Source: an uncultured Schlesneria sp.
GTDB taxonomy: Bacteria; Planctomycetota; Planctomycetia; Planctomycetales; Planctomycetaceae
NCBI GenBank assembly: GCA_903911795.1
Contig: CAIWEX010000802.1
Location: 1-35,968 of the forward strand
Reading direction: 5' to 3'
Length of the DNA stretch: 35,968 nt
Below, piece by piece: positions 3-17,784 of the stretch. Position 1 is the first letter of the stretch. Every line of letters starts with the position of its first letter. The position numbers were made by a program, and so were the translations under genes. A model generated the notes under the pieces. The model searched no databases, had not been told where the DNA came from, and saw only the letters and a list, made by a program, of their open reading frames with translations.

Positions 3-1287
3 GGCAGGGCCAGCGCCCACTAAGTTGTTTTGCCGCATAGGACTTCGAGGAGGAAGTTATCGTTCCATCCGCAACTTCGTCTCTTCATGGCGATGCTTTG
101 CTTGCTGGGATGCTGTTTGAGGAGTGACAGCGTGAAGCGATTGAGCCAAGCATGAGTCTGGCGCAGATGATTCTCGCGGATGCGAGATTCGTCCTCTCGA
201 AAGGTGACGTCGAGGCACCAGTGGCAGGTGTTCTCGACCTTCCAGTGACTGCGAACGGCGTTCGCGAAGCATTTGACACCAACTGGCAAGCTGCTGATGT
301 AGTACCGCGACTCTGTCGATTCCTTGCCGTTGCAGACGCTCGTCCGAATCACCAGGCCGAGTGTCTTCAATCTGGCCCAGCGTTCCAGTTCGGGAAAGTC
401 ATTTGGCACTGGCATCTGAATGTACTGCCGGGTCTCTTCACGACCGTGGCTGGTTTCCTTTGTCACATGACGACGAGCACCGCAGTTGCGGAAGTCGCTT
501 TCCATCTGCCGGTTGATGTATGCAACCGTCGTCTGGTGCAACCCTTCCTGGTTCCCTTTGACGGCGAGTACATAGTCTGCCTTCCCCGCAACGATCTGTT
601 CGGCGATCGCGGTCTGTGTTCCCATCGCATCAATCGTGATGATCATCCCTTCCAAGCTGATCAGCTTCAAAAGCTCTGGAATTGCCGTGATTTCGTTCGA
701 GTGCTGATCGGTAGCAACCTGGCCCAGCGACAGGCCCATCTCGGTAGCCCATGCGCTGACAACATGCAGTGCACCCAATCCCTTCGACTGATCATGACTT
801 CGGCGAAGAGTCTTACCATCGATCGCCACAACAGGTTTATCCATGTCGCCTGCTTCCCGTAGCGAAGCAATCCATTGCATAAAGCACGCTTGGAAAACAT
901 CCGGCTTCAACGCTGCCAGAACACGGCGGAAGACATCCTTACGCGGGATGCCGTTCGGCAGGTCCAAGCACTTCAAAAGCAAGACTTCCTTCATCCCGGC
1001 CCAAACTGCGATTGCCGTTGGACCAGCAGCACCAGCCAGCGTGGCCATCAATGCGATCATCACAACACTGATCAACGGGTGCAAAAGATTGATCGACGAC
1101 CGCGGATCTTCCAACTCACCGAAGTACTCTGCGATCTCTTCCAGACTCAAACGCATCGCCTTGCTCATCGTCGTTCTCCCGCTCACGTCGTTTTCAACGA
1201 GACACGGAAAACGATGTACATGATTAGGTCGCAGAGCGCAAGTCGCCTATCTTACCAAGACGCCGCAGAGTGCGCGCTGGCCCTGCC
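3..1287 (-). mobile_element. ISAs1-family insertion sequence, essentially complete
   Basis: Near-perfect terminal inverted repeats bracket the transposase: ggcagggccagcgcccact at 3..21 and agtgcgcgctggccctgcc at 1269..1287 (18/19 complementary). The left flank is cut by the window edge, so the target duplication cannot be verified. Confidence 0.85.
20..1186 (-). CDS. ISAs1-family DDE transposase
   Basis: 388-aa ORF with ISAs1-type features: N-terminal 'FGELEDPRSSINLLHPLISVVMIALMATLAGA', 'VVAIDGKTLRRSHD', 'VVSAWATEMGLSLGQVATDQHSNEITAIPELL', 'ITIDAMGTQTAIAEQIVAGKADYVLAVKGNQ', 'WKVENTCHWCLDVTFREDESRIR'. Confidence 0.95.
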   Translation of the reverse strand: MSGRTTMSKAMRLSLEEIAEYFGELEDPRSSINLLHPLISVVMIALMATLAGAAGPTAIAVWAGMKEVLLLKCLDLPNGIPRKDVFRRVLAALKPDVFQACFMQWIASLREAGDMDKPVVAIDGKTLRRSHDQSKGLGALHVVSAWATEMGLSLGQVATDQHSNEITAIPELLKLISLEGMIITIDAMGTQTAIAEQIVAGKADYVLAVKGNQEGLHQTTVAYINRQMESDFRNCGARRHVTKETSHGREETRQYIQMPVPNDFPELERWARLKTLGLVIRTSVCNGKESTESRYYISSLPVGVKCFANAVRSHWKVENTCHWCLDVTFREDESRIRENHLRQTHAWLNRFTLSLLKQHPSKQSIAMKRRSCGWNDNFLLEVLCGKTT

Positions 1288-15696: not shown

Positions 15697-15889
15697 AAGA
15701 AGCGTTGGTTCGCGGATAGGCTGTGAATTTATTCGGCGGGATGGCCCTGATAGTTTGAGCCTGCCCTCCGTTTCGGGGCCTTCCCGTTGGTCACTTCGCC
15801 ACTCCGCGAACCAACGTTTCTTAGGACACACTTCTGAAGTCGAGGCGAATCTGTAAGTTGCCATAGGAAATGCAGCGTTGGTTCGCGGA
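15697..15889. repeat. Three copies of cgttggttcgcgga in alternating orientation
   Basis: + copy 15703..15716, - copy 15803..15816, + copy 15876..15889. The first two extend to 20 bp with one mismatch (aagaa[g/a]cgttggttcgcgga; 15697..15716 and 15803..15822). Confidence 0.88.
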
Positions 15890-16042
15890 CATAAGGTTTC
15901 GTGATGAGGAACGCCCCTCGGCATGTCCGGCTCAATCGTCGGACCGCGCGACCGTGTGAAGATCTTGTAAAATTTCCCTGGCCGGATCAGCGAGAATTTC
16001 AACGTGACAGCACTTGGGGAGGGAGGTACGGGAGGGCGAGGC

Positions 16043-17697
16043 CTGAGTTTCAGGCGCATCTTTTATTCCTTTTGAGTTGGAGCTGATATCTGAGTGCCGC
16101 GGCTTTTGCGCCATCAATCATTAGCTGCAGTTTTTCCCACCCGCGCCACAGGACGATCCATCCCGGCTCCGGGCTGCTTTTCTTGCCGGGATGGCCTCCG
16201 AGGCGAGCCAAGGCCATGTAGAACTCGTGTACGGTCCAGTGAGGACAGCATTTTCGATGACGCCACAGCGATAACACTTCGATGTATTCTTCGTCGATGT
16301 CGTCACAGGCCAACCGATCGCGGGCCTGGGGGTTCCTTGCGCTGTCTCGTATGGCCAGCAGCGACAGCGCCAGGATACTCAAGATCGCGATAGCCGGTCG
16401 CAGACGCTCGACGTCATGGAACTGAAGGCTTTCGATGCTGCAACCGGTCTTCTTCGCTTTGTGAAATTCTTCGACGGTCCATCGCCATTCGTACCAGGTC
16501 TTGACCTGCAAGGCATCGTCCACCGAATTGACGGGGTGATTGGTCAACAGCAGCCACTCCAGAGCCTTTTCTCCCGCGGGGGGATTTGTTTCCCATACTC
16601 GGACGATCCAGACGGGAAGCGGAGTGTTGCCATGGTTTCCATTTTTACTGGTGGGAGCCATGATCTGGACGGGGCCGGCCGAGATGCTCAGGCGAGCTAT
16701 TCGCTGTGTTCGGATCGTCTTGGTCTTTTTGCCTTTGCGCTTGGGGCTGTTGACGATCACCTTTTGACTGACAGCCAGCTCCAGGGTACCAAGCTCTTTT
16801 AGAGTCCGGGCGTGCTGATGCAGATGTCGTTGCTCACCATCCGGGCAATGTCCGACCTGAGCATTCCGGTCATGGGATGAACGGATCACGAATGTCCGGC
16901 CACTGTGCATCTCATGCTCAAGGAACTCGAAGGTATCACCGCCGCGATCACACAGATCGACGACTTCGCGGCGGCTCGGGAGATCCTTCGTTCCCTTCAG
17001 CCACAGCAGACTTTCTCGCGATTCCCGCTTACGCCGTTGCGACTGTTTTTCCTTTTTTTTCACCTTCGGTCGCACATGCAGGATCTGATTGGCCAGTCCC
17101 ACAACTCTGTTCAACTTCGGATCAACAACTAGCGTATTCTGAACGAGATAACCCCGCTGTTTTCCATTCCCGATTTGTCCCAGATCCTCCACCAGCGTGG
17201 CGTGAGTGGTGTAGTCCAGTTCCGTCGCGTCATGGATCGCCAGAACAAAGTGGTCGGCTGTTTGCAAGTATTGCAAGGACCGGTCCCGATGCGGCTTCAT
17301 CACAGCCTCGTGCGTCACGTCGTCTGCGTCACAAAGGCGATAAAACGAATCCAAGTCCGCGCCTCTCGGCAATTTCTGCGGCAGTGTCCCACCCGGATGT
17401 CGATGCATCTCATTCACCAGCTTCGGCAGTCTTTCGTTACGCCGAGCGTCGCCCAAGTCGACTGCCTCAAAATGGATTTCCCCAAAGCTCTTACGAGGCT
17501 CCGCCATGATTCTTCGTTCCATCGCCGACGACAGGAACCCCTCCTGAAGGTTCGAGCCCATCATAACCTGGCACTACGCATCTAGCGGTCATCACGTGCC
17601 TCGATCTCGCATAACTGCAATCACAACTCGCAGTTGGCACAAAATACAATTCAGTGCCCAAAATCCTATGACAACAAAAAATATGCCGGAAACTCAG
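16043..17697 (-). mobile_element. IS4-like insertion sequence with readable ends (about 1655 bp)
   Basis: Ends ctgagtttcaggc... (16043 inward) and ...gccggaaactcag (inward from 17697) are inverted repeats (9 bp, 1 mismatch, 3 bp, then a degenerate T-rich stretch). Flanked by direct repeat ggcgaggc at 16035..16042 and 17698..17705 (10 bp, agggcgaggc, if the overlap with the ends is counted). Encloses the transposase ORF. Confidence 0.85.
16050..17507 (-). CDS. IS4-family (Tn5/IS50-like) transposase
   Basis: In-frame ATG at 17507 gives MAEPRKSFGEIHFEAVDLGDARRNERLPKLVNEM, a Tn5-type N-terminal domain. 'LAIHDATELDYTTH' contains the first catalytic D, 'VVDLCDRGGDTFEFLEH' the second, and 'WYEWRWTVEEFHKAKKTG' is the Y/W-R-E-K region. 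Confidence 0.93.
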   Translation of the reverse strand: MAEPRKSFGEIHFEAVDLGDARRNERLPKLVNEMHRHPGGTLPQKLPRGADLDSFYRLCDADDVTHEAVMKPHRDRSLQYLQTADHFVLAIHDATELDYTTHATLVEDLGQIGNGKQRGYLVQNTLVVDPKLNRVVGLANQILHVRPKVKKKEKQSQRRKRESRESLLWLKGTKDLPSRREVVDLCDRGGDTFEFLEHEMHSGRTFVIRSSHDRNAQVGHCPDGEQRHLHQHARTLKELGTLELAVSQKVIVNSPKRKGKKTKTIRTQRIARLSISAGPVQIMAPTSKNGNHGNTPLPVWIVRVWETNPPAGEKALEWLLLTNHPVNSVDDALQVKTWYEWRWTVEEFHKAKKTGCSIESLQFHDVERLRPAIAILSILALSLLAIRDSARNPQARDRLACDDIDEEYIEVLSLWRHRKCCPHWTVHEFYMALARLGGHPGKKSSPEPGWIVLWRGWEKLQLMIDGAKAAALRYQLQLKRNKRCA

Positions 17698-17784
17698 GGC
17701 GAGGCTCCCGCCGAGCCGGGATTGGGTTTAGGTGTCCATTCCAATTCCGGCTCGGCGGGAGCCTCGCCGCCTCGCCCTCCCGTA
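17698..17784. repeat. GC-rich palindromic element (28-bp arms, 15-nt loop, plus outer extension)
   Basis: ggcgaggctcccgccgagccgggattgg (17698..17725) pairs with ccaattccggctcggcgggagcctcgcc (17741..17768), one mismatch. The right side continues gcctcgccctcccgta (17769..17784), complementary to 16027..16042 across the IS4-like element. Confidence 0.93.

Follow-up and report, generated by a model that had tools for sequence, protein, structure and literature searches.

An insertion sequence (IS) related to Tn5 splits one arm of a long palindrome in the 35,968-nucleotide stretch of DNA from an uncultured Schlesneria sp. that we analysed (hereafter the window). Comparisons within its genome and with relatives show that this IS targets an 8-mer of the palindrome, apparently the middle of a short dyad, and that insertion duplicates these 8 bp. 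The doubled 8-mers that are found empty in other palindrome arms are in turn likely to be scars, left after an element was excised and its flanks were rejoined.

The insertion sequence and the interrupted palindrome

The IS, as delimited by its terminal inverted repeats, its flanks and homology, spans positions 16043 to 17697 (1,655 bp, minus strand). End comparison identified a left terminal inverted repeat, CTGAGTTTCAGGCGCAT (16043..16059, plus strand), and a right one that reads CTGAGTTTCCGGCATAT on the minus strand (17681..17697); these repeats are imperfect and start with CTGAGTTTC. A single ORF (16050..17564, minus strand) codes for an intact transposase of 504 residues, which scored 300.7 bits with the IS4 model NF033590 of NCBIfam (cut-off 160), matched Tnp_DNA_bind of Pfam and aligned with the Tn5 transposase 3ecp (residues 31-489, E=8e-48). 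The catalytic D, D and E residues and the Y-R-E-K signature are conserved. Elements of the IS4 family are defined by a DDE transposase with a Y-(2)-R-(3)-E-(6)-K signature, encoded in a single ORF without frameshift, and by target duplications of about 8-13 bp. The window protein harbours WYEWRWTVEEFHKAKKTG, with the invariant Y, R, E and K columns, and its catalytic regions align to those of Tn5, while the duplications are of 8 bp here, 8 bp in relatives and 8-10 bp in distant ones. Within that family, the IS50 subgroup is described as having ends of the form CW------Y---CA-A--W-, direct repeats of 8-9 bp and a length of 1350-1550 bp (PMC2266710). The CT end and the 8 bp of the window IS fit this description, whereas its 1,655 bp exceed that size range and CTGAGTTTCAGGCGCAT agrees with the end consensus only in part. 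The element belongs to the IS4 family, resembles IS50 and Tn5, and probably moves by cut-and-paste.

Both flanks of the IS read GGCGAGGC (16035..16042 and 17698..17705, plus strand), and, in view of the 8-bp duplications found in relatives, they are most likely the left and right copies of a target duplication. The interrupted arm is composed of an outer part, TACGGGAG (16027..16034, plus strand), followed by the left copy and, beyond the IS, of an inner part that begins with the right copy (17698..17725, plus strand). A loop without assigned strand (17726..17740) separates it from the uninterrupted arm (17741..17784, minus strand). The first-pass annotation had proposed that removing the IS restores arms of 44 bp, and this proved exact. 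Once 16043-17697 is deleted, 16027-16042 joined to 17698-17725 reads TACGGGAGGGCGAGGCGGCGAGGCTCCCGCCGAGCCGGGATTGG, which differs by one mismatch from the uninterrupted arm (17741-17784) once this is reverse-complemented, a match of 43/44. The uninterrupted arm harbours GCCTCGCC twice in tandem (17761..17776, minus strand), which we read as the probable scar of a past element on the grounds of the tandem surveys described below.

At other copies of the IS, contigs stop 107-121 bp into the element, so that the assembler had to pick a path through the window copy, and the junction might be a chimera uniting the flanks of two separate IS insertions. This is improbable, as the 43/44 match of the joined arm includes the TAC outside the common core; moreover, the general conclusions are independent of the window copy.

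An Rfam search of the window yielded no match. A repeat starting with AAGCGTTGGTTCGCGGATAGGCTGTGAATTTATTCGGCGGGATGGC adjoins the palindrome both in the window (15700-15820) and in another contig (C76, locus L005); in the window it comprises inverted and direct copies of GCGTTGGTTCGCGGA. A second transposase-like ORF, of 388 residues, is found at 20-1186 (minus strand), with a IAVDGKTLRRSHD motif that we take to resemble those of ISAs1-type elements.

A family of palindromic repeats

Approximately 35 copies of the palindrome were detected in this genome, and matches were found in 78 of the 171 genomes of the family, as opposed to 0-1 match per genome for a reversed control pattern. These copy numbers and the near absence of control matches show that the palindrome represents a genuine repeat family and not a chance occurrence. 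Some relatives harbour hundreds of copies (G013, G076, G130, G128 and G079, with up to 724 arms), partly in regularly spaced arrays. RAYT-associated REPs are defined as palindromes mobilised by a RAYT (Y1 transposase); the window palindrome has no obvious GTAG/CGTC tag, and the repeat of TBK1r described below reads GTAGCCGGAGGT.

Target choice in this genome and in relatives

The window represents contig C802 of a draft genome (G000, 8.39 Mb, 1,338 contigs, 92% complete), which was queried by sequence patterns. The relatives retrieved in our searches are planctomycetes, and the gene content of the window suggests the same affiliation. All ten ends of the IS or of IS-ended elements in this genome adjoin an 8-mer of the palindrome, GGYGAGGC or a sequence differing from it by one base, in either palindrome arm and in either orientation. 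Five are ends of the IS (two in C802, the others in C923, C585 and C1), and five belong to short elements (C515, C1186, C183, C1204 and C653). As the T variant of the 8-mer, GGTGAGGC, is present in both C1 and C923, these two ends probably represent the two sides of one insertion.

The five short elements (C515:5296, L044; C1186:1530, L046; C653:1216, L049; C1204:21456, L047; C183:98, L043) and a sixth sequence (C383:1-192, L072) are repeats of about 200-280 bp that have only the left terminal repeat in common with the IS. In three of them, GGCGAGGC (or GGCGAGGT; GGGAGGGCGAGGC/T) is fused directly to GGTGAGGC or GGTAAGGC, without the right terminal repeat. These junctions are suggestive, but only suggestive, of IS loss from between two different 8-mers. 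The short elements are possibly remnants of composite elements after such loss.

A search of 170 other genomes for the IS end next to the 8-mer returned only chance matches and no true insertion. Because the ends of the relatives have diverged, these were found by homology rather than by pattern; among the genome contigs the matches came from an alignment query, a single-protein query giving none. Two ISs with 70-75% DNA identity, in a genome of the same genus (G141) and in one of another genus (G106), are inserted at the same exact point of the palindrome, between GAGCCTCGCC and CTGACTTC (L107 and L093). An IS of Pirellulaceae (L186), with about 50% protein identity, is found in the palindrome family of the window, where one 8-mer, GCCTCGCC, has been duplicated in the ordinary way. 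On the complete TBK1r chromosome, all 13 detected copies of an IS with about 50% protein identity are located in one REP-like repeat, the insertion sites being mostly GTAGCCGGAGGTCA/GCGCAGCG/CCACCTCCGG, with perfect 8-bp duplications. Lastly, the copy of G133 lies in an arm of another palindrome, the other arm of which has a single 8-mer. The record of that copy (L201, G133 C322) is labelled Candidatus Kuenenia; as its palindrome site, GTTTAACCCGTGGCCGACAGGCCAGG, is also present in a genome of the window's family, this label may be wrong.

REP-targeting ISs are those with most or all copies in one palindromic repeat family, as are the ten of ten ends here and the 13 of 13 copies in TBK1r. Together with the other relatives, these data strongly support the earlier proposal that the IS targets the palindrome family, and the flanks of its copies, which the first-pass annotation had suggested to inspect, all show the same 8-mer. 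Since the ISs of the relatives follow the same rule, palindrome targeting is evidently older than the window genome.

The relevant target seems to be the small dyad present in each arm, CGGGAG-GGCGAGG-CTCCCG, rather than the whole 44-bp palindrome. The dyad of the window is predicted to form a 6-bp hairpin, with a modest z-score of -1.36. Thirteen sites had both ends and duplications that could be set. The duplicated bases tend toward the centre of a short dyad, and at ten of these sites, two of which are the same TBK1r REP, the stem surpasses the 5% level of the local controls; this scoring was chosen after some of the sites had been seen. A universal dyad centred on the target duplication was rejected, as three of the 13 sites have no stem beyond 5% of local controls.

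Doubled 8-mers in the palindrome arms

Searching with an arm pattern that leaves room for any insertion between GGGAGGG and the inner arm, we obtained 37 matches in this genome and about 4,139 in 77 others of the family. A tandem pattern with wildcards at the variable positions of the 8-mer hit 11 places in this genome, of which 10 were exact; of its three hits in the other genomes, only that of G075 is an exact tandem in a palindrome. The 54 arms tabulated from this genome include 12 exact tandems, one with three copies, plus a few decayed ones. Exact tandems are thus nearly restricted to this genome (12 of 54 arms, versus one in about 4,139 arms of the 77 others). As to whether arms contain one or two 8-mers, the question raised by the first-pass annotation, empty tandems do exist, but the single 8-mer prevails in most palindromes here and in nearly all elsewhere; the tandem is not ancestral.

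The 12 duplications inside palindrome arms have a period of 8, with none at 6, 7 or 9-13, and this period is not enriched outside the arms, in roughly 236 kb with some locus overlap. The tandems are homotypic, T arms harbouring GGTGAGGC twice and C arms GGCGAGGC twice, and the main loop subfamilies contain tandem and single-copy arms alike. Together with the three-copy arm, these features indicate that the doubled arms represent local, repeated events. Nevertheless, the arms of one genome are not independent, as C120 and C49 have both the tandem and its flanks in common and count as one event.

The palindromes are themselves dispersed repeats, and the shared tandem and flanks of C120 and C49 might reflect the spread of a founder palindrome that already had a tandem 8-mer. 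That such a founder explains the tandems in general is very unlikely, given that they occur in unrelated flanks, in several loop subfamilies beside single-copy members and in either arm, and that each has the variant of its own arm. Slippage during replication, or misreplication driven by a hairpin of the palindrome, would likewise yield homotypic tandem repeats, and the IS could then simply prefer the same hairpin, into which the target is predicted to fold. This explanation is also unlikely, although less so, because a single case was found in the approximately 4,139 arms of the 77 other genomes, and because several periods would be expected whereas only period 8 is present, which is the target duplication of the IS group.

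Origin of the doubled 8-mers

With a period equal to the target duplication, a position identical to the insertion point and near-confinement to the IS-bearing genome, the tandems are most simply accounted for by insertion followed by excision. The transposase evidently selects the 8-bp centre (GGYGAGGC) of the short dyad nested in each arm, and integration duplicates these 8 bp, as comparison with the relatives shows. In the interrupted arm of the window the IS is still present between its two duplicated 8-mers. In the uninterrupted arm and in about a dozen others of this genome, an element, either the IS or a shorter one with its end, would have been released by cleavage at both tips, and rejoining of the blunt flanks would have generated a tandem 8-mer. 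Tn5-type transposases cut the donor DNA flush, through hairpin ends, so that a tandem 8-mer is just what joining of the flanks would give. The RecA-independent route by which an IS is usually lost pairs the duplications and restores a single 8-mer, and would produce no tandem. A related possibility is abortive integration, in which the 8-nt staggered target cut would be filled in and sealed without the element. Scars of excision or of abortive transposition thus appear to be the best reading of the doubled 8-mers. Of the two earlier suggestions, a trace left by insertion and excision agrees best with the data, provided that the trace is placed in individual arms of this genome and not taken for a feature of the repeat family.

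The first-pass annotation had also considered that the IS inserted between two pre-existing tandem 8-mers without net duplication. The intact arm of the same palindrome does carry a tandem, and the joined arm matches it at 43/44 positions. Yet the relatives duplicate 8 bp at single-copy sites, including in the same palindrome family and in a palindrome with a single 8-mer in its other arm, and the paralogous empty sites of another insertion in this genome (C585) carry a single 8-mer, which is the common state here and nearly universal elsewhere. Furthermore, an 8-bp staggered insertion at a tandem should result in three copies, and only two are present. A pre-existing tandem is therefore highly improbable. 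Most likely, the interrupted arm of the window had a single 8-mer that was duplicated by the insertion, while the scar in the opposite arm is older; the seeming paradox of an insertion with no net duplication is thereby resolved. With ~22% of the arms of the genome carrying putative scars, the combination of an occupied arm and a scarred opposite arm is unsurprising.

A search of the genome, which is 92% complete, revealed no Ku homologue. The joining step would thus have proceeded without its usual enzyme, and classical Ku-dependent joining was rejected as the mechanism. A single draft genome, with contigs broken at other IS copies, supplies the evidence for scars. The roughly 50 empty REPs of TBK1r, which has 13 IS copies, are free of 8-bp tandems, and scars as a general property of the IS group are unsupported by that chromosome. 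Two TBK1r REPs (CP036432; G171:C1:8503354 and 5387619) are off by +5 and -5 bp, corresponding to a CAGCG unit, unlike the 8-bp putative scars of the window genome.

Comparison with known systems and significance

REP-targeting ISs are known in five families, with one IS4-family element among them, ISRm22 of Sinorhizobium meliloti, all copies of which are in REP elements (PMC1525189). The window IS resembles ISRm22 in belonging to the IS4 family and in inserting with very high specificity into a REP-type palindrome. ISRm22 is assigned to the subgroup IS4Sa in PMC2266710, whereas the transposase of the window IS matches Tn5/IS50, with CT ends and 8-bp duplications, and the accessible text on ISRm22 makes no mention of tandem-duplication scars. 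With IS50/Tn5, the window IS shares a transposase homologous over nearly its whole length and CT ends. The two likewise agree in their direct repeats, of 8-9 bp in IS50/Tn5 (PMC2266710), and in preferring palindromic, GC-ended targets (cited in PMC1525189). Unlike IS50/Tn5, the window IS has a near-absolute specificity for one repeat family and ends that partly deviate from the IS50 consensus. IS1397/ISKpn1 (IS3 family) and IS621, ISPpu9/10 and ISPa11 (IS110 family) likewise target repetitive extragenic palindromes, with different transposase families and chemistry. REP targeting by an IS is thus a known behaviour, of which the window IS is a new example, with a new target repeat and a wide distribution in planctomycetes. 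That transposons may leave target duplications behind as footprints has been stated in general terms (PMC3119063), and our partial literature search found no account of scars accumulating in a repeat family. The genome-wide scars look new.

Bacterial donor-site repair after cut-and-paste transposition is usually invisible, as random target sites offer no empty-site reference. Here the target is a repeat family whose unmodified form is known, and each doubled 8-mer thus represents a countable candidate scar. The chances are about even that a cut-and-paste IS with near-absolute target choice leaves joined 8-mer scars at many of its empty sites, so that a repeat family would record its whole history of visits, here in a genome without detectable Ku, the donor breaks then being sealed by another end-joining route. 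Countable candidate scars would make the frequency of excision and repair measurable from sequence, and a Tn5-like transposase with a strong natural target choice would be useful for understanding how such enzymes read DNA shape.
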